The notes under the pieces: model-generated
The model's input: only the letters and a program-made list of their open reading frames with translations
Told to the model about the DNA's origin: nothing
Database searches by the model: none
Source: Lepisosteus oculatus
Lineage: Eukaryota > Chordata > Actinopteri > Semionotiformes > Lepisosteidae
NCBI RefSeq assembly: GCF_040954835.1
Contig: NC_090716.1
Location: forward strand, 4,947,605-5,011,604
Length of the DNA stretch: 64,000 nt
Direction of reading: 5' to 3'
Part shown: one piece after another, positions 8,901 through 28,648 of the stretch
Layout of the letters: each line of letters begins with the position of its first letter
Position numbering within the stretch: position 1 is the stretch's first letter
Translations under genes and position numbers: made by a program

Positions 8901-11900
8901 CAGATTGCATACAATTTCTGAAGAGACAGCTGAGCAGATGGTTTTGGCTGACTTTTATTTGCATGAAAAAGATGAGAGAGCCCTTTTTTTTGGCAATACT
9001 GTGGGATCCCTTCCACAGAAAACGCTGAGTGATTCTGATAAACAAAAATTCAGAATGTAGACTTTGCCAGTACCTTTCAGTGGCTTGTTTCAAGTGGTTG
9101 TGGAACAACCTGAGAATTTTCTGTGCTGCGGAAAAATACTTTGCGGTAACTAAGCGTTCAAAATTTTAATTTCTCCCGTAGCATAGCACTCCAAGATGCT
9201 CTCTCTAAGGGGAATCTTCCTTGTTTCCTGCTTAGGGTATTTTTAAAGGGCAGCATTTTGATTGGGAATAGCCAGTGACCCGTAATTATTAGTTTGATGT
9301 GACCCGTCCATTTTCCTCCTTTGAGGACAAAGTGTGGAAGGAACTCCATTACAGAGCTGCAGACTAGTCAGGTTGGTCAGTTTGTTTCCATTTTCAGCCT
9401 CATACAGAATCACATTAAGGTAAACAATGATGTGACTTTCATTTATGTCGCTTCCATATCTGTCTAGGAAGAACGCAGAGAGTGGGGAACAGGCTAGCAT
9501 AATTTCCCAGACAATGCATGGCAATGGACAGCACAATGCTGCTTTGAACACGTGTCAGCTGCCCAGCAGGCGACTGTTAGGTTGTGCACAGTGAACATAG
9601 AAAGACTTGTGTGCCCCTACTTGTCTTCCCTTGCGGAAGAATGTGTACCTTCCCCAGCGGGCGACTCGTTTGTTAACGTTAAGTTATCTGGAACTTGACA
9701 TAATTGCTCAGTGGGAGCTGAATAGCCTTTTCTTTAGCTTTAATTTGTAACTGGTGGAACATTATACTTTGGAGCTCTTAACAGGGCTGTGAGCACTTTG
9801 TAACGGGGGCTGATGGATGGATGGATATTATTCCACATACATCACCTTATTAATTAAAGCTCTTTACTTAAAGTGCAGGAAGTATAAAGCACCCGCTGTA
9901 TTATAGTGGCCAGCATTGAAGTTAAAACAAAAAGGTAGATTTTTCTGTAATCTGAAAGAAGAGACAGTTTCAGTTCTTCTCTCAGTCACAACCCTTAATA
10001 GTGGAAGTGCTGCAGAAATATTGTTCTAAAGATGGACCACTGTAAATGTCCACTTCAGCTATTTCTTCTACATTATTTTGCATTTTACAGGGAAGGTGCT
10101 ATATTATGCTATTAATGGCATGCTTTTCCTGAAAGCATTTTAAAGTGGCATCCAAATGTTATGATCTGCAGTTCTACATGGTTTATTATGCTGTAACAAT
10201 CCTGGATAGAATTTTTAACTGATTGAATTTGTAGATGTTTAAATGTCTGAAAGTATTATATATAGCAAAGCATGGTTTAAGCATGCTGGAGTATGAGGAG
10301 GTATTTTGGAGACAAATTCAAACCCCGGTAACATAACCACTCAGATATCATGCAGATTGACATTGGGAAAAACTACATTAAAGGTTTAGACACACCTATA
10401 ATGTGGTTGACATTAAGTCTATAGTTGGTTAACAGAAGCAGAAGGGGAAAAACCAATTTGGTTTCATTATTCACTTTCAGTTTGATCATAGCATTCTTTC
10501 TGCACCTGTTGTTTAAAGTAAGAAAGTTTATACTATATGTGTAAAACCTGATTCTGTAAAGAACACATTAATGTTGTCTAAAAAGCTTGCTGTAATCGCC
10601 TGATTTTCTACATGAGCACAGGGAAAACATACAAACTCCATGCAAAAAAACACCCCTGGCTGGGAATTGAAACTAAGGGCCTCAGCACCGTGTGGCACCT
10701 CTGTGCCCCTATTATTATTTCTTTTAAGCATTAAAATATCAAATATCATACAGCAGTTCCATGACATGAGCTCCTTAAATGCTAGGGACTTAAATGTTTT
10801 AGTGTTCAATTGCATCTGTTGTGTTTTTTCTAGCTTTATCGCCATGGTGACAGGTCTCCAGTCAGGGCCTATCCCACTGATCCATATCAAGAGAGTGCCT
10901 GGCCTCAGGGATTTGGTCAGCTCTCCCAGGTATGTCTCACCCAAAAAGCGCACGTATTTCAGAACTTTATTCCTGCTGTTACAGTGTAACCCTTCTACCA
11001 CGCCAGACAGGGACATGTAAGCTTGCAGTCATAATCTAACACATAAGCTGTTGTTTAGAATTGCCGTTCTTCCACTGTACAGAGCAGTGAGCAAGCGTGT
11101 GATACCATGGAAAACAAATTCTCAATTCACCCCTGTTATGTGTTGTCCCCGAGTGTGAGATACTGAAGGCATTCCCCTGTACAGCTTCTGTTTGGCCACC
11201 TTTTAAAATAATGTTTAACTCACTTAACCAATTTCATTGATTTCACTCCTTCCTCGTAGCTTGTTACTGGGTTTTTCCTACTTTAATAGTGATTTCAGTC
11301 AGGAGGGAAATGGGTGCGATGGTTTTTGAGTTCAACATCAGTGACTGCATGCTGTGACGCACTTTTAGCCCAAATAGTTTTCAGACAGCATTGTTCACAA
11401 GCCAGCGCTGCTCCTCAAGCTTAAATGTGCTGTTGTTAACTCCATCAGGATGTTTTTAATACCCTGTCATTGACTTGTTCTTTTCAGGAGGGAATGAGGC
11501 AGCATCTAGAGCTGGGGCAGCTCCTGAGGAGACGCTATCATGGTTTTCTCAATGAAAGTTACAATCGGAAAGAGGTAGCTAGTTCTTTTGTGGTCTTCTA
11601 TTTTGTGTGTGGACTTTGGGAACTCAGCTCCTCACAATAAACACATTTGCAGTTCTATGCATTCAGGGCTGTGACATCATAATTGCTCTGTTCCATCTGT
11701 GCTTTAAAACTATTAAAGGCCAAACTGTGAGTCTCCAAATAAAAAAAAAACAACAGCATCTAAGGTTCTTTTTTTTTTCTCAGGGCTGTATTAAGAAAGA
11801 TTTTGGAAGTCCTGGTCCTCAGCAATTTAGGGCTGTTAACCCTAACCTAGTGCAATCATAATGTTTAGGTGTAACTGGATAAGTGGTAGTGGGAGATATG

Positions 11901-14900
11901 TGATTACAGCTGCCTTCTGCTTACCCTCCTACTTGTATGCTTACCCTCCTGTTCCTCGCAATTTAAAACTTTGAGGGAACTTTTAACCTTGTTCAAGTGC
12001 TCCACCACTAAAGGTGCTGTTCTTGAAATGTGCTCCAGGAATTGAAGGTTAGAGCCTGGGCTGCATCAGAAAGCAGCTGTGACTGGGGCTCCCATTAGTG
12101 GTGCAGTGCTGCTTCTCAGCAGACCACTGGGGTTGAGCAGTCTTTTGTTAGCCAGTGCTCTTGACTTTGACACGCCTTAGTGAGGCCTGTGGCCTTCCTG
12201 GCTCTTTTGAGCTTGCTGTATTATCAGTAACGTGTTTCATGTACTACATGTGACACTGCCTGGACTCTGTGCCATCAATGAGGTGAAAAATGGCTGATGG
12301 CTCTGCAGTACTCTTCAACAGCTGGTTAAGGGGACCCTGCAGCTAGCTGAATCAATTAGGAATTGGTGCTCTGTAATTGGTGTGGGAGGGGCACAGAGAC
12401 ATAGGTGGTTCCAGGTGCCTGAAGACTTCCTTCTTCATCCTTCCTACAGATTTCAGTCCGTAGCACGGATTATGACCGGACTCTGATGAGTGCAGAGACT
12501 AATCTGGCGGGGCTGTATCCCCCTAATGGATCTCAGATCTTCAACCCCAACATCCCCTGGCAGCCCATTCCTGTCCACACTGTTCCTGAAGGAGAAGACA
12601 GGGTAACACCCCTCATACCTGTGTAGTCTTGTTCTAACATTTGTTTTTATTATTAATTGTTGTTGAAACTTTGGAGTCTTCTGGGATTTTTGTTTGTGTA
12701 AATAACTTCAAATTATCCTGCTTCTTCTTTTTTGTTTTATCTCTTACCATGGCTACAGATGTCTTTTATAAAAAGCAGAACATTTTGGCCATTGTTCTGC
12801 TGAATCTTCAAATTTTTTGTTCATAATAGTATACGTTTTTTTGCATACAAAAATCAAGCAAAACCACTCATGTTTCTCCATTTTTTCTGCCTTACTGAAG
12901 GCGGACATCTATCTTCATCAGTCTGCAGTTTTCTTTCAAGCACATTTCTTATTCTTTGTCATTTCTACTCCACATGCCTGACTGTAATTTTGGTATCGTT
13001 TTCGTATCGTTTTAGCTACTCTCATTTCCCATCCCAGACTGCCCTCGCTATGACCTCCTGATGAACGAAACAAAGCGAACGGACGAGTACATTAACTTGT
13101 TGAATAGCAACAAAGTAAGTACCAGTTTTGGTTCTGCCTCTGTTGCGAGACGAAGAATACAGTTGCATTTGTTTTGTAGTTCCAGTTTTACTCTTTCACC
13201 CTCACTCTTCTCTTCAGGAGTTTTTGGAGATGGTGAGGAATAAGACGGGGTTGAAGGATGCCACTGTGGAGTCGGTGTGGAGCGTCCATGATACACTTTT
13301 CTGTGAGGTGAGCTTGGTCCTTCTCTTACCTGCCCTGGTCAGTAGGATCCCTGATCCAGGCTGGGATGGATTTTCTCCAGTCATGTTTTCTGGATGGATG
13401 TGTCCACACTGGCCATCTATGGTCCTAAAGGCAAAAATATGATAAGAGTGGTAGTTCTGTAAGTTTGTTGTTTACCAGCTGAATGTGTCCTAGTGAGAAA
13501 AGTAACGATTTCACAAGGATTACACAATGGCTTGGCTCCCTTGAAGCGGAACTGGAATGGGAGGATGAGGCAGAGCCGCAGTTGCACGCTGGGCTGCCCC
13601 AGTCTTGTGATTTGAGGAGGGTGATACCTCATGTGACTTCAGTGTTTTTTTCAGTCATGCAGTCCATTTCCAAATAGGGGAATTCTGCAGGATATGGACA
13701 GCAGAGGTTTCCGTCCAAACCAACAGTTTATAGGGCTAAAAAGTTATGGTTAGCCTAAATGATTAAAAAAAAATCATATGGATGGATAAAGGCTCATTTG
13801 TCAATTTCGTTGACAGTCTCTTTTTGTGACTGTTTGTACTGGCACTGTTCTTGCCCATCTTGGCTGATACAGAGAGGTTTCTGTAATTACAGGCAAAGCA
13901 CAACATGACCCCTCCTTCCTGGGTGACTCCGGAGGTGATGGAGCAGCTGAGGAAGCTGAAAGATTACAGCTTTGAGCTGATGTTTGGAGTTTACAAGAGG
14001 GAGGAGAAGACGCGTCTCCAGGGAGGTGAGGATGAGTCAGCCATGAGCAAGCGGCATCACGCTGCTATCTCTCTCCATGTGTGTTTTGCGGCAGGGTTGT
14101 CTTTACTGGCTTCTGGGGCAGGCTCATGCCTCTTTTACTGCTGGGCAAGGAGGATACTGCATTTGTTTTTCTGAATCCATTCTGTTACGCTCCAGTTTCT
14201 GGTCAGCTGTGCTGCAGTGCGATGATTGGTTCCAGTGTGCTGTTAAAGATGTTATAGGAAAAGCAGTAAATGGCTGGATCTGGGACATGCCAGGAAAAGG
14301 AAGAGGAAAAGACCATCCGTGAGTAGGGGTCTGAGGAAAAAAAAAAGTGAGGGTCCCAGGTGAAAATTAAAAGGGGAGAGGATGGTGAGCCAACGCCGTA
14401 AAAATGACTCAAAAAAGGAAAAAAATCAAAAGGGAAAAACAAAAATAAGGCAAAGAAAAAAAATTACCATTAAAAAAGGGAAGGGTTGGGGGAATAAGGA
14501 GAAGAGGGAAACGGGGAATTGAAAGAGAAACTTTTCAAGTAAAGAGAAGCGACTGCTTGCATGAGAGTTGAGGCTCTAATGACAGAGTGATGATACAGTG
14601 GTTCATGGTGACTAAATCAGGGTGTCTAATAATAATAATAATAATAATGTTTCTTTATTAGCCCTATACAATTTCTTGGATTAGGAATGTGTCTTTTCGC
14701 ATACCCCAGCTTTTTCTCCAGGGAGACACAGACACAGAGACAGGGAGAGAAGCTTGGGGTCAGAGCGCAGGGTCTGCCATTGTACGGCGCCCCTGGAGCA
14801 GTTGGGGTTAAGGGCCTTGCTCAGGGGCCCAACGGAGTAGGATTCCTCTGCCGGCCGTGGGATTTGAACCGGCAACCTTCCGGTCACAGGTGCAGATCCT

Positions 14901-17115
14901 TAGCCACAGAGCCACCGTCTGAACTAGTCCAGAGCCTGATGGGGAGAGGGTGGGAGTGTTACCTTGATTTGAAAGGCGCCCTGATCTAGTTTGAGGGGCA
15001 GGTTGAGAGCTCGTGGGAATGCTGCTGTTGCCATGGGCAACCGCAGGATGTGTCGGTCCCAGCCCGGGCCCGACATGTTCATCTTTTGTTCACCCAGATG
15101 TTTTCGCATTGCCATCCCATCCCCAGTGTGTAGCCAATTAAGCAAATTTCCACTGCTTTATTGAGAGGGCACTAACGGGCAAACCTGATGCAAGGAGGCC
15201 TGGGTAAACAAGGAAAGAGCTCTCGTTTGCTGACAAGAAATGGACTTAAGGTCTTTGCCACAGAAGCAAGCGAACAGTCTGATTGGAAACGATCAAAGCA
15301 GCATCAGCTCTCTCACTTCATTGTAACCTTTCTTTAACCTCATCTTTCATAGGTGTTCTTCTTGGGCACATTGTAAAAAAATTGTCAGATGCGGCAAAGT
15401 CTTCAGTTCCGTCTCCGAAATTAATGATCTATTCAGCGGTGAGTCCAACTTCCAGTGCTGTACTGTTTGATCTTAATTTGTGTGTTTTGGTACCTGTTGA
15501 AGGTCATTACACAGACATGGTTAGAATTTACCAGCTGTCTGTGCCAACCACTGTCAGGTAAATTTCCAAGCTAAACTTCTCAATTTCTTTCTCATTTCAA
15601 GCCCTGAAATTTGAAAGTGATGCAATAAAACATTGTTTAAAGTTCAAATAATAAACCCACATTTACGACCAGATAAAATGAAGATGTGATCTGATTTGTG
15701 GTGGCAGTTTTCATTGGTCAGTCATCTTGCTTCTACCCAATGAAAATCCTTCACTGAGTAATGGCAGCCAATCACCCATGACCAACCAGGAAATGGTGTT
15801 GCCATTTGGGATTCATTGGGAAAATCCAAGTTTTTGATTTGGCCTCAGTAGTGCTGGACAAACGGGTGACAGATTTAATTTCCTCTTTGGCTCATAAATC
15901 TGGACAGATCGTTACTTTGTCACTTCTCTTCTTTTTCTCCAGCATGACACTACAGTCGTGGCCTTGCAGTCAGCGTTGAATGTTTTCAATGGGAAACAAC
16001 CCCCCTATGCTTCCTGCCACTTTTTTGAATTGTACAGAGAAGGCAATGGGTAGGTAATTCCAGATGTGCTTGTACTTTGAATTAACGATTGCAGGCGCCG
16101 TTTTCTCACTGGTAATAGCAGGCAATCTTCGTGTTTTTGAATAGTTGAGAGCCATTTCTTCATTGTTCTCAGGTCTTTCACGGTGGCCATGTTCTATCGA
16201 AACCACACCGAGCAGGAGCCTTACCCTGTAAGTTTGCCTGGCTGCTCCCAGTTCTGTCTCCTGGAGGATTTTCTCAGAGTCACCAAGTCTGCCATCCCAG
16301 AGAACAGGGAGAAGGAATGCCAGGTGGCCAGAACAATGAAGGACACGGGTACAGTGAGCTGTTAATCTTTTGCAGTGCGGTACTGTTGTCCAGATGACAG
16401 TGGCAGAACTGCATGTAGACTAGTCTGTACTCTGATTCAGGCAGCTTGAAGCATGTAGTAAAATGAAAGGGTTGTAGCATTATGTTGCACTGTTTCAGCC
16501 AAGTTTGTATTCATAAGAACTGTTACAAATGCCTTCCGACCCATTTAGTTCTTTTGTTAGTTACTGTTTACCCTGAGGAGCTCGTCTAACCATTTCCTGA
16601 AAGAAGCCAGGGTATTAGCGTCAAAAGCATTGCTGGGTAGCTTGTTGCATAGTGCTACCACCCTGTATACAAATAGTGCAAAGTCCTTGGTTTTTAACGC
16701 ACTTTGTTGATGTCTGAGCTTCCACTTGTGTCATCTTGTTCACATTATACGGTTATTCTGCAGCAGTCCATTGGGTTGACTTTGTCAATACCTTTGAGGA
16801 TTTTGGATACTTATGTCATGTCCCATTATAATCTTCTCTGTTCAAAAAGCTCTGAGCTAGAAAGCTTCAGTTCTTTCAGCATGTCGGTAAAGGGCAGTAT
16901 TGAGATGTTCTGTCTCAGTTATTTTGTTTTTGCATAATTTTCTCACAAAGTCCTTTTTCTTTTAATCGGGGCACCCAGAGGTGATTGTGGGACTGGCGGT
17001 GTGCGGCTGCCTGCTCTTCCTCCTCATCGCGCTGCTCCTTACCGTGCTGTTCCGGCAGAGGGATGCTCAAGATGGATACCGCCACGTTTTAAACGAGGGG
17101 GATGACCACTCCTGA
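5948..17115 (+). CDS. ACP2: Lysosomal acid phosphatase 2, 11 coding exons
   Basis: Histidine acid phosphatase that hydrolyses phosphomonoesters in the lysosome. It is made as a membrane-bound precursor. Exons: 5948-6073, 10834-10929, 11488-11574, 12450-12602, 13016-13114, 13218-13307, 13893-14025, 15353-15438, 15943-16049, 16173-16348, 16979-17115. All introns are GT-AG and all phases join, giving 429 aa (human 423 from memory, also 11 exons). Residues 1-33 are a signal peptide with an [12 protein letters not shown] core. The catalytic motif RHGDRSP is at 45-51 (His46 is the nucleophile), and the proton-donor pair HD is at 291-292. NxS/T sequons include NES, NET, NKT, NMT and NHT. A transmembrane helix lies at about 386-410, followed by a short tail with GYRHV, the YxxPhi endosomal sorting signal of this family. 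The start was chosen for the signal peptide. ACP2 is preferred over ACPP by the tail and by the neighbours DDB2, PACSIN3 and ARFGAP2. Confidence 0.96.
7850..8290 (-). mobile_element. Decayed LINE reverse-transcriptase fragment
   Basis: On the minus strand around 8187-8160 the translation reads [11 protein letters not shown], the RT catalytic motif block (F/YADD type, usually FADDTTVVG in fish L2/Rex-like LINEs). Flanking plus-strand text runs collinearly with the antisense RT of that family, including a TCCACGATCAG-like word near 8123-8133. Stops and indels break every frame, so the element is dead. The exact clade is uncertain. Confidence 0.7.
10590..10722 (-). mobile_element. tRNA-derived SINE fragment, minus strand
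   Basis: Contains GGAAAACATACAAACTCCATG (near 10621-10641), the reverse complement of the SINE body seen at 43061-43340. It also has GGGAATTGAAAC, a degraded reverse box B, and a box A-like GTGCCACACGG on the minus strand. It is followed by an ATTATTATT tail. Confidence 0.6.
14627..14925 (-). mobile_element. tRNA-derived SINE with (ATT)n tail, minus strand
   Basis: On the minus strand, box A-like GGTGGCTCTGTGGC lies at about 14920-14907. Box B GGTTCAAATCC lies about 40 bases further on (near 14870-14860). A unique body then ends in an (ATT)n tail at 14627-14648. It sits in ACP2 intron 7 and carries no known coding sequence. Confidence 0.75.
16515..16910 (-). repeat. Old interspersed repeat (LINE-tail type)
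   Basis: In ACP2 intron 10. Words such as CATTTCCTGAAAGAAGCCAGGG (16590-16611), AGTCCATTGGGTTGACTTTG (16765-16784) and the ATCATGTCCC-like TGTCATGTCCC (16813-16823) belong to a repeat common in fish and amphibian genomes, recognised from memory. A shorter, more decayed piece may be present near 34090-34130 (AGAAGTCCATTGGGCTGAC). I cannot name the family. Confidence 0.45.
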
Positions 17116-20843: not shown

Positions 20844-21089
20844 TTAATCATTTGTCTTCGTCCGGTCTCTCTGGGGTTTGGCGTTTTTTCCTTTGGTCTT
20901 GGTCTGTGTCTTTCCCGACTCTGAGCTGCCCAGTTTCTTTTTCCGCTTAGTCCTCTCTGTGCTTTCCCTGCTCTCCCTGCCCGCGTGCCGCCGAGCCCCA
21001 CGCAGTCCCAGGGAGGTGCTAGCAGTGGAGCCCATGCCGAGATCGTCCCCCCTGGCTCTTATCAGCCTCTCCTGCCTGCTTCTCAGCAT
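20844..21089 (-). other. DDB2: DDB2 basic C-terminal extension
   Basis: After the conserved ILIWSREE, where the human protein soon stops, the frame continues about 80 residues to TAA at 20846-20844. The tail is dominated by Lys, Arg, Ser and Thr, with TKRKKKLG as a likely nuclear-localisation stretch and no hydrophobic core. I recall that zebrafish DDB2 is also longer than human, so this is probably a shared fish feature. The role is unknown; nucleosome or DNA contact is a guess. Confidence 0.75.
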
Positions 21090-24000
21090 CTCCTCCCGGC
21101 TCCAGATCAGAATGTTAAAGCCTGCGCAGCAAAAGACAGAGCTGTCATGCCCATATCAGCTGTTCCCAATGCAAATTTTAAAATGCTGCATGCCACTAAT
21201 ACAGAACAGGAAATGCATGATGCTCTTAATAGCAAATCAAGATGAGGAACAGTTACATAAGTGAACTGTCCAATGTACTGCGACTACTTTTAAAAACATA
21301 TCCTGCCATCAGTCTCTTACTGTGGTTCAGTATCTGCTAAATGATTACAAACCAGTCATTGATCTACGCACCCATTCCAGATCCCAGAGTATCTCCCATC
21401 AGGTTAAACTTGTTAAGCTGGAAAATAAAAAGTTTTTCAGGTTTATGGCCCGTGGTACTGTTTGTGGTTGACAGGTCACCCACAGTGTAATATTCATTAC
21501 GGAATAAGTTCCTCAACAAATCAAATGTATAGCTACATGCATGTCTTTTAAGCATCGTGTTTAAACACCTGATTTAATTAACTCTACAATAAGAAATTCT
21601 GCATTTAAAGGCTAATTCACATTCGTTAATGTCATTGAAGAAACATCAAAAATAGATTTAAAGAGTAGGCAATCAAAGTTCATCCTTAGCTTTTCCAACT
21701 AGCTCTTACATACTTTCCGTGACATGGAAGACACCTGAAGCAGTTTTTCAGCATGCTAGCTCTGCAGTAGGGTAGAGCTGGCATGCCTGGTTAATCTGCT
21801 GGTCTTTAACATGGAACAAAATTGGCACTCACTGAAATAATACCAGGGGCATTGGGGTCATGCAGCTGACAGACCACTTCTCCGGTACTGGCATCAAACA
21901 CATCGATGGTCCTGAGCTCGTCTGGAGAGACGCGGCTATCTGGGTAGCGGCCCGCTACAATGAGGTCGTACAGAGGGTGCCAGGTCGCCTGGAATCCAGA
22001 GGACACGGCGCGAATCACAACAATAGCACACAGCTCACTCAGTGCCAGTTATTTTACAACAAGAGCTAGTAATTGCATTATGGTTTGGCTTTGCATTATG
22101 TTCACACTTTGCGCTTGGTGGGGTATGAAACTCCACCCCCCCATCATGAACTAAAGCACAGAGCGGAATGAGAAAGCTACGCTTTTGGCTACATGTGAAC
22201 ACTGACCACACACCACAGGATGAGTCGGTAAGAGTCTCTTATGAGCCACAAACGAGAGGAGGACATTCAGCTCATCCAGCTTGTTTGGCAGTAAGTTAAG
22301 CTTTTGTCACACTACAGGACTCGACGTGACTTCTAGGCGAAGAACATGTCAAACTTAACGACTGAATCTCGCTGCCTTTTCTGTCCTAGAGGGTGTCAAA
22401 CTATATGTCCTAGAGGGTGTCACACTACACAAATGACGGGCCCGAATGCGGCTCTATACGCCGATTGTCTTACGATTATGTAAATGAAGGCTGCGACTGA
22501 AAATCCTGGGAAAAGTCGTGTAGTGTGACGCCGACTTTCAAGGATCCAGGGATCTCACCACTCGCTGGAACTACAGTTTCTGTAGCCGTACTGCAGTGGC
22601 TTTTCACTACCGACCTTGATAGGGGTGAGGTGCTGGAACTGCCGGTGTGGGTGGATCATCACATTCTGAGGCTTGCTGAAATCCGCACAGGAGTACAATC
22701 GGATTTCATCGTACTGGTCTGTGGTGAGCAGTTTGGACCCATCTGTGGGGTTGAAGTAGGCTGTAGCACACAGAGCAAAGAAAAGAGGCGGGATGAGATA
22801 CTGGTGGCCAGGACTGGAACATTCCCTTTTGTGAAACCGGGAATAGGACAATAGCAGTCGAGATGCTACAGAAACTGAAACTACCTGTAAAGGTGGGCGT
22901 ATCTGATGAAAGCCACATGTGCTGCAAAGAAATGATAAGTGCGCTTTCTGGTAACCACTAAAAAGCTATCCTGTGAAAAACGTGCTCATGTCAACTCTAG
23001 ACCAAACAGAATTTTAACAAACAGAAAACCTCATAGGTAAGTGAAGGTTAACAAAAAATGAAAAATGTTATTCATTACAAATAAGAAACATTGGAACTAA
23101 ACAAGAATATGTCATTGAAAGACTCGCCAAGATGCGTTTCTTACCAGAGTTGACGGCCTTCTTGTGAGGCAGCTCGTGCAGGAAGCTGTTCTTGTCCCCG
23201 ATGCTCCTCAGGTCCCAGATCTTCACTGTATGGTCTACAGAAGCTGTTGCCATCAGCCAGTCACAACGCTGGTTAAACTCTACATGCGTCACCTTGGCCT
23301 TATGCAGCTTCTGATTCCAAACCTGAAAAGGGACGTTTGCCACAAAATGCGGCACATTATTTTCCCCTACAAGCACTTTTCAGGATTTACCCCCCAAAAG
23401 ATGATACACAACGATCACAACACAACACACATTGCGAAAGACTGAGAGTATTACATACTGTAAGTGTCATTATCCCCTATCTCTAGCACTACTACTACTT
23501 TATAAATAAAACTTACTAAAATGCATAAATCTGACAATGATTTCTCTTCTAAATGTATTTCACACTCACCCCAAATTACACATTTATTACTGTAGCAAGC
23601 AGTAATAAATTAAGACAAAGGGAGCGAATACTTATTTCTACAGTTACCTATAAAGTTACAGCATATAAAGTACATAATACTGTGTAATCATGCGTACACT
23701 GTCATTTCAATCACTAGAAAGTTTAAGCATCGCACACAATGATAAAGAGTATCAACTAAACCTAGAATGTATATATTTGTCAAATCTGTAATAATTTAAC
23801 AAACTATATTAATCATCAATATGCAATTAAATAACAGAGAGTGCCTACTGTGTCTGTGGTAGCAGTTACATTCGTCCTTGCCAGGCCAGCCCCCCTCACT
23901 CACCTTTGTACCATCCATTCCTAGTAGGAGGACTCTGCCAACATTGTCTCCAGTCACCACCACCTGTCTGCTGGGTGACACATCAACACTGCAGAACCAG

Positions 24001-27000
24001 ACACTGGGAAGAAACACAGATTGGGATCACCACCAACCAAAGACCTTCTGGACTTGCGCTCTGCTGGGTTACTGGCTATAAAACAATTCCACCTGAGTTG
24101 TCCACCCTTTGGGTATCGAGCAGATTTCCCAAAAGCCAGCAAAGCGAAGATTTTTGCTTAAGGAGAACCAGGTGTAAGTGCTTAACAAGCCTCTCTTCAC
24201 TGTACAGGTGAAGCCAAGGTTAACTGCTTTCCTTGGCCACCCCCTGAGTATTTACAACAATGACATCTACTGCAAATACGGTCCACCCAGCACTGCAGCT
24301 GTCTCAGTAAAATGCCCAAACAAGGACTTTAGATAAAGGCATGAGGCTGCGATCCAGCAAGTGTACATCGTACATACTGTACATTTAACTGCCAAACTAC
24401 TTCTGAAAAACACAGGAAATAATATAGTGTTGTTCGCAAGGTGATTATTGGCACACGGATTATACTTTACTGCCGAGAGACAAATTCTATCATTTTAGCT
24501 AGTAAATTATGGTCACAAAAGGCAACATGCCAAGATGAGCTGAAAAGTCTTACTCACAGATCTAACTGGCATGAAACACTGCAGCTAGTATGGTGTTCTT
24601 TTATCAGCGCTGAGATCGTTTATTTAACTTCAGTGTCCATAGTGGCACTGTTTCTAAGAACAGAACAATAATTACACAGATATAAGGACAGTAGTTGTGC
24701 CCCTGCAGCCTCATTAGAGGTGCTCACACCTTGAGCCCTGTTTTCTCACCACACATTATGGTGATCGTGGCCACAGTCTGGAGCTCTTGACAGTATTTGA
24801 GACGGACCACCACCAAAGTCCTGCAGACTCAGTGAGCCGTCCCCTGATGCAGTGTAGATTTTGGATGGGTCAGTGGGACTGAACTTGATCTCGCCGACAA
24901 AATCCCCTGCTCCTTTCTGGAACAAACACAGGCACACGGGGATGAATGAGGCCAGATCTCCGCCATAACATCCAAAGGATTCACACCACAGTGAATCACT
25001 GAGGCAAACACTGAACAGGAACATGGAAGCCTGGCCTTCAATCCCACAGCAGCTCAAACTAAAAACACTGTAGATCTGTACCAGCACGCCTCAAGCCTCA
25101 TGGCATCCATGCGCCCTCCAGTGGTACTTGATAATACCTGCACTGTTTGCAGGTAAGAAATGTCACCACTGAAACTCCTCCGATTTCCTTTTGGTTTCCA
25201 TTTTTAGATTTTAAATTGCAGAAATCAAAGGAGAAGGAATAAAGGTGCAAATTGTGTTTTGAAGGCGGAAGTTTTAAATAAAAAACTGTATGTAATGGAG
25301 ATTTAACCAAGTGAAACAACATCATTCAAACTTCCTCCAAGCAGCCCAACAGTCTAATATAGTGCTCATACGTGGAAGTTACAAAAGTAAAATCCAGTCT
25401 AGAGAGAAGACTACAACAACAACAAAATGTATATTTTTACAATACACTACAAAGGAAAGGTCAGCTTTCGAATCTTTAAAATCAAGGCTAACAGTGTAAC
25501 GCTATGCATGCAATATCCCAGTGTATGTAAACAGTTGTTTTTCTTCAGAATTTATACTTTTGAAATGTATGTCATTAGGTTTCCATGCCACATACTGTAC
25601 ATTTAAAAAGGATCATTTAACAAAAGTACCAATGTAATATGTGAAATTAATTGAAATTGGTGAGTAGCAAAGGCTTACAACAACATGATTCATTTGCATA
25701 AAGCTTGTTTCTGTAACCTACTGTTAAACAGTATTGTGGTAATGACAATCCCTTTCCCTAAGGAACCTTATTATATTCATCCTTGAAATCAAGTCACTGG
25801 TTACTTCTGCAAGCAGTAAAAGTCTGAGACAAGAATCTATTGTTCTGTCTTCATCCTTGCATGTGATGCTCAGACTTTGTATTTCAGTTAACAGCTGAGC
25901 TCAAGAATGCAAAAGATTAGATATTGCAGTGTAAAGTTACAGCATTGTTAAACACACTACAATAGGATTGTCAACTATATGCTGTACAGTAGCCAAATGC
26001 CTTCATCTTGCACTGAGCAGTGAAGAAGTTATTGGGTATTATTTTACAACCATAACACTAAATTCTAAACTTAAATATTTATCCTGGAATAGTGAAGAGT
26101 AGGTCTGTAAGTATTAAAACTGATTCTCCATTTATGACATACTAGGGATACACTGATGATAAATGAACAACTTTTAAAATACGTAAGTGCTTAGACATGT
26201 CTTAAAAGACAATCATTCACATGGCTAGAGACTGAATTAAAATGACATCACTCTAATCAAACAGAACCTTACTTTTATGCATCATTCTCTTTATTTCTGC
26301 CATTAAAAAAACATGGATTTTCAAGTTCAGTAGCGCTTCTAAAAACTGGTTCATCATGGCATTACTTAGGTTCAATGTAAATGCCACACAGGAAAACAAA
26401 AGACCAGCTCAGCTGGACTGTGTATTTCAGTTCACTGCTTTGGAAAGAATAAGGAAATTGGTCAGAAATCTGAATATAGCTAAAGATCTGCAGTGCTCAC
26501 AATTGACATGAATACTAAGAATATTTCTGCTTTACCATGGCCAGACAGGACTTGCTGATGCTTGATTTATTTTTTATTTCTGCTTCAGCTATGAAAAAAT
26601 GACCATAGAATTCCATAAAATAGCAAAGATTTACCAAAACAGCTGGAGAAGCTGGAGTATTACGTAGCTGCTTCCCAGAGTGTTAGTGTATTTTCAGAAG
26701 CATCTACCTCCATTGAAAAACAAAATCTTACAGCAGACTTAAAGGATCTGAGGCAATAATTAAATATATAGTAAGTCATGACACACCATTAAACTATACT
26801 AAGATTCACTGTACAAGTGTCTAGTTTTGCCCTTCGGCATTTTTAAAAGTCAACAATAAGTTAAAAAACTGCATCAAAACTTTCTTACTCCCACTGATGA
26901 GTGCTGGCAAAAACTTTAATAGTGTTGCCTGTAAAATCCTGCAGAGAGGTCGTGCCTCCGACAGACGATGTAAACAGCTGACTGGGATTGAAAGGGTTAA

Positions 27001-28648
27001 ACTTCATGTCTGTTATGGAGCCCCCAGCTCCCATCTAAACAAATATAAAAAAAAACACAAAAGGAAAATATCTCAGGACACTGATCACGGTGTGCTAACT
27101 ACATTCTTGGAATGGAATTCACACCCAGACAAAACCACAGCATACTGTATATACCTGCCAGGCCTGGAGAGAAACCACTCACCCCTTGGATGAACTTGGT
27201 ATTCTTTGACATTTCGTAGTCCAACAACACTATGTCCCCCCCCTTGGAGCCTACTGCCAGGGTGCTGGGGCACGTTGGGTGCCACTCCAGGCACGTCACC
27301 CTGCGATCGAATGGGCTGGCTGCATGGAAGAGACTGTAGGAGTTCAGAAAGCGCAGGAATGGCTGTTGTAGGCACTGGAGAGACAGGAGAGCCACATCGG
27401 TCTTCCAGACAAGAAAAGAGGCCAGATTTACAGAGGGATGGCACAGGCAGTGCAGTTATTTCTCACAAGCACGCTTCAAATGTGTGTTCTTAAGATACAA
27501 CTCCGATGTCCGGAGACAGAAACAGCACACTTTTTTTTTTCTTTTTCGCTCCGTATGTGACTGACTATATGTCAAATGTTTGTGTAACAGGGAGCGGTCA
27601 TGGCTTGATAAAATCACTAAGAGAGTTACCATTATTCTGCTATACCTTACAAAATCATTTTATCTTTCTGACAAAAAGGGGAAAAAAAACGTTCTTTAGA
27701 CGGCAGCTCTAAAAAGAAATTCAAACCTGGCGCATCTGTGACTGGATGTTCTGACCCAGTGAGTGTTTATACACATAATGGACAATACTGTTCTGCCTGG
27801 CCGCCTTCTGAAACCCCACACTCTCTCTGTTATTCTGGAGTTCAGATCTTGCTTCTGAAATAAGAACAAGACCAGAATGATTACAAAAACCATCATTTTC
27901 GCCAAACCTACCACTAAACATAACCATTATCGGGGTTAAACCTGGGGAAACCTGTCTTTTTTAAATGTCCCACTGAAATTTAGAAGTTAAAAAAAAACAA
28001 TCGAAAAGCAAAATCAAAGCAATACTCTCATACCACTACAAGTTTGAGTTATTCGAACTTTGTAAAGAATTAGCCAGGATTTTACTTTTTTCAGTACATG
28101 ACATTAGTCAAATCCCACTGGCTGTTTATGGTAATTCTTACATTTCTAAAACCAAAGTCATTTAAAGTGTAAATAAATCGAAGAGACCGCATGTACAGGA
28201 ATATCCTCTGGCTAATTCCATAAAGTCAGAGGAAACGACAGTAAGGAGCAGTGGAAAAGGTCGCTTTGTAACAACCATGCACATCGTTTTTTAAGTAACA
28301 TTCCCTTGTCTTCTGGTACTGATTGCTTGAGCACAAGCACCAGCAGATGGAGCAGCAACTCAGAGGGGAACCGCTGGCGCCGCAGTCTCATTCCGCCCAC
28401 TACTTGTTGGGGAGCTGGGCAGGCATGCCTTATTGCTGAACCGTCCCTGCTTGGGGAAATTCAACTTGAGACAAAGCCATGAGCTCCAGTCACACACCTG
28501 CTTTCCCCGGAACGCCTTCCTTTTTCTTCTTCAGCTTTCTTGAGAGGGGTTCTTCCGAAGGCTCTGCTCGTTTGCTCCGAGAGGTGGATGGCCTTTCCTT
28601 TTGGCGTTTGGGCACCGTGCTGTCCAGGAGAACTTTCTTTTTGGCCAT
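20844..28648 (-). CDS. DDB2: DNA damage-binding protein 2 (XPE), with an alternative exon pair
   Basis: WD40 subunit of UV-DDB. It binds UV photolesions in chromatin, recruits DDB1-CUL4 and starts global-genome nucleotide excision repair in the nucleus. Exons on the minus strand: 28648-28498, 27854-27727, 27374-27183, then either 27034-26889 or 24916-24750, then 24003-23904, 23322-23145, 22760-22615, 21988-21833, 21417-21372, 21121-20844. All junctions keep frame. Length is 506 aa with the first alternative and 513 with the second (human 427). Landmarks in the 506-aa form are a Lys/Arg-rich N-terminus starting MAKKK, Lys249 (human Lys244), IWDLR ending at Arg278 (human Arg273, the DDB1-contact box mutated in XP-E), and the lesion-probing hairpin FQH at 340-342 (codons 22638-22630). 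The last exon adds a basic tail of about 80 residues that human DDB2 lacks. Confidence 0.96.
22306..22529. mobile_element. Short non-autonomous DNA element with GTCACACTACA terminal repeats
   Basis: The left terminus GTCACACTACA (22306-22316) is matched by its exact reverse complement at 22519-22529. Similarity continues inward (GACTCGAC against a reverse-complemented CGACTTTT). The interior has no coding capacity and contains a 24-bp direct duplication (GTCCTAGAGGGTGTCA, 22385 and 22409) and a third copy of GTCACACTACA near 22422. It lies in a DDB2 intron, 85 bases from the exon at 22615-22760. Confidence 0.65.
24750..24916 (-). CDS. DDB2: DDB2 alternative exon 4b (second version of one WD40 blade)
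   Basis: A 167-bp exon, acceptor TTGTTCCAG, donor TG|GTGAGA, phase 0 in and phase 2 out. Its translation starts [14 protein letters not shown], includes [10 protein letters not shown] and ends with DCGHDHHNV. It aligns with exon 4a (27034-26889) at GAG, KF.P, PS, T.S and SLQDF.G, and is seven residues longer before the shared WFCSVDVS of the next exon. The frame is open and both splice sites are good. From memory, zebrafish DDB2 has a very similar PDC.HDHHNVC stretch, so this is the teleost-type version. Confidence 0.85.
25120..26880 (-). other. DDB2: DDB2 intron between the two alternative exons, central part
   Basis: AT-rich intronic DNA between exons 4a and 4b. No coding or repeat family is recognised. 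If exon choice is regulated, intronic control elements are likely here or close to the two exons, but none can be named from sequence. Confidence 0.4.
26889..27034 (-). CDS. DDB2: DDB2 alternative exon 4a (tetrapod-like version of the blade)
   Basis: A 146-bp exon with a strong polypyrimidine acceptor (TTTGTTTAG) and donor GA|GTAAGA, phase 0 in and phase 2 out. It reads [13 protein letters not shown], then [12 protein letters not shown] and KVFAS. It aligns without gaps to the human segment GAGGSITGLKFNP, LQDFKGN, RVFAS, as I remember it. The intron to the preceding exon is 148 bp. The intron to exon 4b is 1972 bp, far too long for steric exclusion between the two exons. Confidence 0.88.

Follow-up and report, generated by a model that had tools for sequence, protein, structure and literature searches.

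A putative pair of alternative exons for the lesion-contacting segment of DDB2 in Lepisosteus oculatus

The DDB2 gene of Lepisosteus oculatus features two homologous copies of its fourth coding exon, 4a and 4b, in a window of 64,000 nucleotides (64 kb) from contig NC_090716.1. With a probability of roughly 0.7, these are tandem-duplicated alternative exons, for which the choice of one exon would give two UV sensors and the use of both or neither would give a stop. DDB2 is the protein that first recognises UV lesions in chromatin. In the proposed scheme exon 4 would have been duplicated in tandem to give 4a and 4b, a pair found nowhere else among the assembly candidates scored. A transcript that takes exactly one of the two would encode full-length DDB2, and transcripts with both or neither would reach a stop codon and probably enter nonsense-mediated decay. 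The 4a form would be the DDB2 known from human and, presumably, zebrafish. The 4b form would be another UV sensor, with the pocket Gly-Ala-Gly and the reported contacts encoded outside exon 4 retained, and with the loop by which CPD methyl groups are read exchanged for a longer, more acidic, Cys/His-rich loop. The most likely effect of 4b would be that lesions, CPD in particular, are bound with a different affinity or preference. If the lesion-touching part is exchangeable, the lesion choice of UV-DDB would be tunable by splicing. The two forms would also be a natural protein pair that differs solely in the lesion-touching part of DDB2, with which discrimination between CPD, 6-4 photoproducts and abasic sites could be tested without designed mutants.

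Gene structure and reading frames

DDB2 is located on the minus strand and has ten coding exon positions, of which position 4 is duplicated; all coordinates below are on this strand and count from the first letter of the window. Coding exon 1 (28498..28648) begins at an ATG at 28648 that was picked by eye. It is followed by exon 2 (27727..27854) and by exon 3 (27183..27374), which ends in phase 0 and is the upstream partner common to 4a and 4b. Exon 4a (26889..27034) is 146 nt long and the homologous alternative exon 4b (24750..24916) is 167 nt long, and the intron between them (24917..26888, GC 0.358) is 1972 nt long. Exon 5 (23904..24003) is the common downstream partner. The remaining exons are exon 6 (23145..23322), exon 7 (22615..22760), exon 8 (21833..21988), exon 9 (21372..21417) and exon 10 with the stop codon (20844..21121). 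The predicted protein is 506 aa with 4a and 513 aa with 4b, and each is open to one terminal stop.

The DDB2 chains 4a08 and 3ei1 were used for comparison together with the crystallised human chain; we take both to be zebrafish. Both forms of the protein align over the propeller with the human and presumed zebrafish chains and contain the FQH hairpin, whose residues are carried by exon 7, as in DDB2 (XPE), the lesion-binding subunit of UV-DDB. Unlike these chains, the gene described here has an alternative lesion-contact exon, and exon 10 encodes a long basic C-terminal tail that extends past the end of the matched chains.

Both 4a and 4b start in phase 0 and end in phase 2, and each fits exons 3 and 5 in frame. 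An earlier note on this DNA had given these coordinates, frames and phases and had held that one-exon products alone are full length, and the gene model agrees with it throughout. When 4a is joined to 4b the frame meets a TGA inside 4b (24829..24831), which the coordinates place 79 nt upstream of the junction between 4b and exon 5. When both exons are skipped, a TGA is read in exon 5 at 23985-23983. DDB2 transcripts with both or neither exon are probably removed by nonsense-mediated decay.

Homology and origin of the two exons

The claim that 4a and 4b are homologous exons encoding the same WD40 blade is borne out by likeness beyond chance in two kinds of comparison. A tblastn search with 4a against the 64 kb window found 4b with an E-value of 6e-9 (40% identity over 42 aa), and the next best piece was another DDB2 blade at 0.047. 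The Smith-Waterman score of the pair is 95, and the best of 2000 shuffled 4b sequences reached 50. The alignment contains 17 identical residues out of 43 and 62 common bases out of 129. At E ≤ 10, queries with 4b and with 4a against the 1.2 Gb assembly each returned two matches, the query itself and the other exon (3 and 2 best candidates scored, respectively). An origin of 4b in another gene was considered and is not supported, the sole other match among the best candidates scored being 4a. In the PDB, no match to the 4b-type sequence was better than E 0.0002, and the best was a generic WD40 protein. No such sequence was found in bacterial, archaeal and viral contigs, where none is expected. 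Taken singly, neither exon reached the Pfam cut-off, and Rfam gave no match at the gathering threshold across the window. A duplicated DDB2 exon is nowhere reported among the matches listed from open-licence PMC papers.

There are some discrepancies with the earlier note regarding the age of the duplication. It had matched human DDB2 to 4a, which the crystallised human chain confirms, and zebrafish DDB2 to 4b. For chains 4a08 and 3ei1, the E-value is instead about 2e-16 with 4a and only 0.002 with 4b, so that the second assignment fails if they are zebrafish as presumed. Since both crystallised types of DDB2, human and presumed zebrafish, match 4a, there is no support for an ancient duplicate with reciprocal loss. 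In a quartet test with a small sample of 43 residues, the preferred position of 4b is beside 4a. This placement leans towards a duplication that is later than, and not before, the split of human and zebrafish.

Lesion contacts of the exon-4 segment

In the passages of PMC12606344 used here, six residues of human DDB2 touch the CPD lesion, I200 and N201 read the CPD methyl groups, and the surface of the segment that corresponds to exon 4 binds DNA. The contact residues were mapped onto the gene by alignment, and 18 of 18 human residue numbers agree with the paper. The exon-4 segment holds five of the six reported CPD contacts, including I200 and N201. The suggestion that swapping the blade could change DNA contacts is therefore sharpened: the exchanged segment is the one to which most of the reported CPD contacts map.

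The Gly-Ala-Gly of 4b (24905..24913) aligns with the human lesion contacts G154-A155-G156 and is kept. The I200/N201 loop is replaced by a Cys/His-rich stretch, DCGHDHHNV(C), whose codons lie at 24750..24778 and which is a net seven residues longer; the alignment of this loop is uncertain, as it passes through the seven-residue insertion. At the I200 and N201 positions 4a has Trp and Asp rather than Ile and Asn, and the same is seen in the presumed zebrafish chain. Outside exon 4, the reported lesion and backbone contacts R112, K132, W203 (encoded by exon 5), K244 and Q308 and the F-Q-H hairpin are kept. The one exception among the listed contacts is Y413, which is Phe here and in the presumed zebrafish chain. 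With the Gly-Ala-Gly kept and the I200/N201 loop replaced, 4b should change how lesions are read, and most of the other reported contacts should stay as they are. Tentatively, UV-DDB carrying 4b may differ in the lesions that it reads: it may favour 6-4 photoproducts or abasic sites over CPD, for example, or read lesions in another redox or metal state through the Cys/His-rich loop. One repair gene would then have two lesion specificities, and the choice between exons may follow cell type, stage or light exposure.

Alternative explanations

The 4b protein could be lesion-blind and still bound to DDB1, acting as a brake or a partner-changing form, if the longer, acidic loop fills the pocket or repels DNA there. 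The charge of the segment is consistent with this, as basic and acidic residues number 4 and 7 in 4b and 2 and 3 in 4a, on what is a DNA-binding surface, but the retention of the Gly-Ala-Gly lesion contacts and of the contacts outside exon 4 makes it a doubtful reading. A mainly regulatory 4b, with strong splice sites that lead to double inclusion and decay, would set the DDB2 level and yield little 4b protein. Splice scores, obtained with an untrained matrix, are 9.5 for the acceptor and 8.2 for the donor of 4b, compared to 6.7 and 4.7 for 4a, and the position of the double-inclusion stop 79 nt before the junction also fits such a role. A pure poison exon, however, need not keep an open, DDB2-like frame that starts in phase 0 and ends in phase 2 to fit exon 5, as 4b does, and a chiefly regulatory exon is considered unlikely.

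It is similarly unlikely that 4b is a relic, decaying or unused, because its frame is open and its ends intact, its synonymous sites are highly diverged and its splice scores exceed those of 4a. Between the two exons about 29 of 31.7 synonymous sites differ, compared to 38 of 97.3 nonsynonymous sites (Fisher p 3e-7), and within the two introns that follow 4a, no open exon of this type other than 4b scores ≥ 4 at both ends. If 4b had no use, splice sites of this kind would also tend to spoil the DDB2 mRNA. In a neutral simulation of 4000 runs, the open frame and splice dinucleotides survived in 2.4% of cases at K = 0.5 and 0.25% at K = 1. In favour of an unused exon, the bounds on its age and neutral distance are loose. 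Differences are seen at 6 of 10 fourfold sites, which gives a lower limit of K about 0.32 in total, and at the corresponding lower limit of about 0.16 for the 4b branch some 1/5 to 2/5 of neutral copies would survive, judging by the runs at K = 0.1 and K = 0.2. That 4b is an artefact of assembly or haplotype is very improbable. Nothing was found in favour of this, the exons agree at just 62 of 129 aligned bases, and the window contains no N; the 2285-base stretch also matches a single place in the assembly, which is the window's own source and thus no independent check.

Comparison with known exon pairs

The preferred reading, alternative exons giving two UV sensors, has precedents. In the portions of PMC5224494 used here, NMD reduces the U2AF1 transcripts with both or neither of exons Ab and 3, which carry stop codons, and the exon whose signals are less favourable is used more often. 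DDB2 likewise has adjacent homologous exons of which both or neither give stops. Seven residues distinguish the U2AF1 exons from each other; 4a and 4b have only 17 of 43 aligned residues in common and differ by 21 nt in length, and the alternative splicing of the DDB2 pair is putative. In a Drosophila example, a homologous segment is swapped within an otherwise identical protein and only 16 of 39 residues are kept; in DDB2, too, a homologous segment would be exchanged and the rest of the protein would be identical. DDB2 does not appear by name in the available main text of the paper with this example. Taken together, adjacency, homology, phases and the non-productive outcome of both or neither match the DDB2 pair to tandem-duplicated exons, and mutual exclusivity is putative.

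Possible means of exclusion

OGDH exons 4a and 4b are also a mutually exclusive homologous pair of a vertebrate gene, and in the portions of PMC7969005 used here their exclusion is enforced by distant branch points. In DDB2 the AG exclusion zone that precedes 4b is of ordinary length, at just 39 nt, and does not point to a distant branch point. Simple steric exclusion had been ruled out by the earlier note, and its classical form is indeed unlikely with an intron of 1972 nt. U2/U12 incompatibility is not indicated, as GT-AG ends are found at all 9 scored junctions, including both site types, and the sites are ordinary and U2-like (U12 type was judged by eye).

A docking/selector arrangement was also considered for a G-rich candidate site near 25120 and is not supported, as the site pairs well with most acceptors tested. 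In an intron-shuffle control for the site near 25128, its pairing with the 4b acceptor and with the exon 5 acceptor was equalled in 0 of 60 shuffles each, and pairing with the 4a acceptor, 4a donor and 4b donor in 11, 5 and 34 of 60, respectively. Among 2132 real stretches of the window, the site ranks 5 for 4b, 11 for exon 5, 9 for exon 6, 11 for exon 7, 30 for exon 3 and 209 for 4a. Its pairing is mostly composition, since it ranks similarly for the acceptors of other exons. For the local hairpin that spans the 4b acceptor, z is -1.87 and 8 of 200 shuffles are as good, and competing RNA structures at 4b are a weak lead. Additionally, all four sense-strand TGGTGG motifs of DDB2 are located in the stretch from 4b to exon 5 (two in 4b, one in the intron and one in exon 5), and this motif presumably resembles that of ESRP.

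Probable alternative exons of DDB2

DDB2, which encodes the lesion-binding subunit of the UV-damage sensor UV-DDB, has ten coding exon positions on the minus strand (28648 to 20844) and its frame is open from ATG to TAA. The fourth position features two homologous versions on this strand, exon 4a (27034-26889) and exon 4b (24916-24750), and we consider the two to be alternative exons with a probability of about 0.7. Each version follows exon 3 in phase 0 and joins exon 5 in phase 2, giving predicted products of 506 aa (4a form) and 513 aa (4b form). Double inclusion leads to a TGA at 24831-24829, and skipping of both exons leads to a TGA at 23985-23983. The coordinates place both premature stops 79 nt upstream of the next junction with further junctions downstream, which would be the usual situation for nonsense-mediated decay. 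An earlier note had proposed two versions of exon 4 of which only one at a time allows a full frame, and the phases, lengths, and TGA positions bear this out.

The 4a form matches the 4a08/3ei1 DDB2 chains, which we take to be zebrafish, at 1e-173 and the human DDB2 chains at about 1e-142. These matches cover the full propeller, with 215/318 identical residues to the presumed zebrafish chain and 194/317 to human. The 4b form gives weaker matches to the same eight distinct sequences (3e-157 for 4a08/3ei1 and about 1e-128 for human), and neither exon searched singly reaches the Pfam cut-off. The exons share 17 of 43 ungapped residues, and tblastn inside the window pairs them at 6e-9, the runner-up being a piece of DDB2 blade 1 at 0.047. 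Searches of the assembly at E up to 10, which score the best candidates only, returned two places for 4b (itself and 4a) and the same two for 4a; this argues strongly, if not absolutely, for a single exon pair in the assembly.

It is unlikely, judging from the sequence, that 4b is a relic. Between the exons, about 29 of 31.7 synonymous sites differ, as against 38 of 97.3 nonsynonymous sites (Nei-Gojobori count, Fisher p 3e-7), a contrast that is partly due to constraint on 4a. When 4b was evolved neutrally in 4000 runs, the open frame and both splice dinucleotides were kept in 42% at K=0.1, 19% at 0.2, 2.4% at 0.5, 0.7% at 0.75, and 0.25% at 1.0. At K=0.5 and 0.75, simulations starting from 4a remained open with at least 17/43 identical residues in 18% and 1.5% of runs, and at 1.0 in 0/4000. 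The neutral distance between the exons is loosely bounded: 6 of 10 fourfold sites differ, and K is about 1.2 in total, with a lower limit near 0.32.

Predicted splicing of the pair

Scored with an untrained weight matrix, the 4b acceptor and donor reach 9.5 and 8.2 bits and those of 4a reach 6.7 and 4.7 bits; in the remaining DDB2 exons, acceptors score 6.0 to 12.0 and donors 3.9 to 12.2. Among stretches of 101-199 nt in the introns after 4a, 4b alone combines an open frame and a phase-2 end with acceptor and donor scores of 4 or more. An intron of 1972 nt separates the exons and 4b is preceded by an AG exclusion zone of 39 nt, so that crowding or a distant branch point is unlikely to keep them apart; the length of the intron agrees with the earlier doubt about steric exclusion. 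A docking-site model with competing RNA structures was tested and is not supported. If both sites were free, the double-inclusion form would dominate and be wasted, and therefore 4b or 4a would have to be held back by regulation. A U2AF1 report (PMC5224494) describes both-or-neither transcripts that carry stops, with the exon having the less favourable signals being used more, and U2AF1 offers a parallel to the DDB2 pair.

A hairpin is predicted over the 4b branch-point and pyrimidine region (24911-25150, minus strand, z -1.87), and its G-rich arm near 25120 can pair with the majority of the acceptors tested. DDB2 has four sense-strand TGGTGG hexamers, all within 23904-24916 (minus strand), and these are possible splicing-regulator sites.

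The lesion pocket

In the structure of human UV-DDB on a CPD-nucleosome described in PMC12606344, G154, A155, G156, I200, N201, and W203 touch the CPD directly, the two methyl groups of which are read by I200 and N201; in the structures with 6-4PP or an abasic site, these two residues are placed away from the lesion. The human-chain numbering used here agrees with that paper for 18/18 checked residues. The alignment places the equivalents of G154 to I200 within the exon-4-encoded segment; the junction of exons 4 and 5 divides the N201-equivalent codon, and W203 follows two codons on, in exon 5. The 4b form retains Gly-Ala-Gly and W203. The I200/N201 positions are W-D in 4a and in the presumed zebrafish chain, and in 4b this loop falls within a 13-residue stretch that is seven residues longer, the position of the insertion in the loop being uncertain. 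Both forms keep the positively charged set R112, K132, K244, and Q308 and the hairpin F334-Q335-H336 of the human chain, and both feature Phe at Y413, as does the presumed zebrafish chain. The 4b segment has 4 basic and 7 acidic residues, 3 His, and 2 Cys; the 4a segment has 2 basic and 3 acidic residues, 1 His, and no Cys.

The swap would thus target the lesion pocket, above all the part described as CPD-specific in PMC12606344. This mapping favours the earlier suggestion that the swap could change DNA contacts. The pair is of an already known kind, tandem-duplicated alternative exons, and its interest is raised by its place in the lesion-contacting segment; no report of such a pair in DDB2 came up in a limited search of open-licence papers.

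Origin of the duplication

Zebrafish DDB2 had been assigned to the 4b type, which is not borne out: over 43 ungapped residues 4a is identical at 26 to the presumed zebrafish chain and at 27 to human, and 4b at 12 and 14. A four-sequence test on these residues groups 4a with 4b, apart from the presumed zebrafish and human sequences, by a margin of 3.8 to 5.2 log units in four models, a signal carried by few sites, mainly Pro-Ser at positions 17 and 18, and the AU p of the two alternative trees is 0.03 to 0.15. The test leans toward 4a having been duplicated once this lineage had parted from that of zebrafish, with 4b then changing fast; an older duplication is less likely.

Neighbouring features

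The last DDB2 exon (20844-21121, minus strand) encodes a basic, Ser-rich tail that extends about 80 residues past the human and presumed zebrafish chain ends in the alignment, and the intron after exon 7 features 1.9 copies of a 24-base unit (22382-22427). A lysosomal-type acid phosphatase gene, presumably ACP2, lies tail to tail with DDB2 (11440-17115, plus strand); DDB2 and ACP2 are neighbours in human as well. Its 11440-11640 piece matches prostatic acid phosphatase at 7e-6, and 16966-17115 (plus strand) encodes a membrane segment and a short YRHV-type tail. An open stretch at 16557-16730 (minus strand) resembles, by eye, the C-terminal end of a non-LTR retrotransposon reverse transcriptase.
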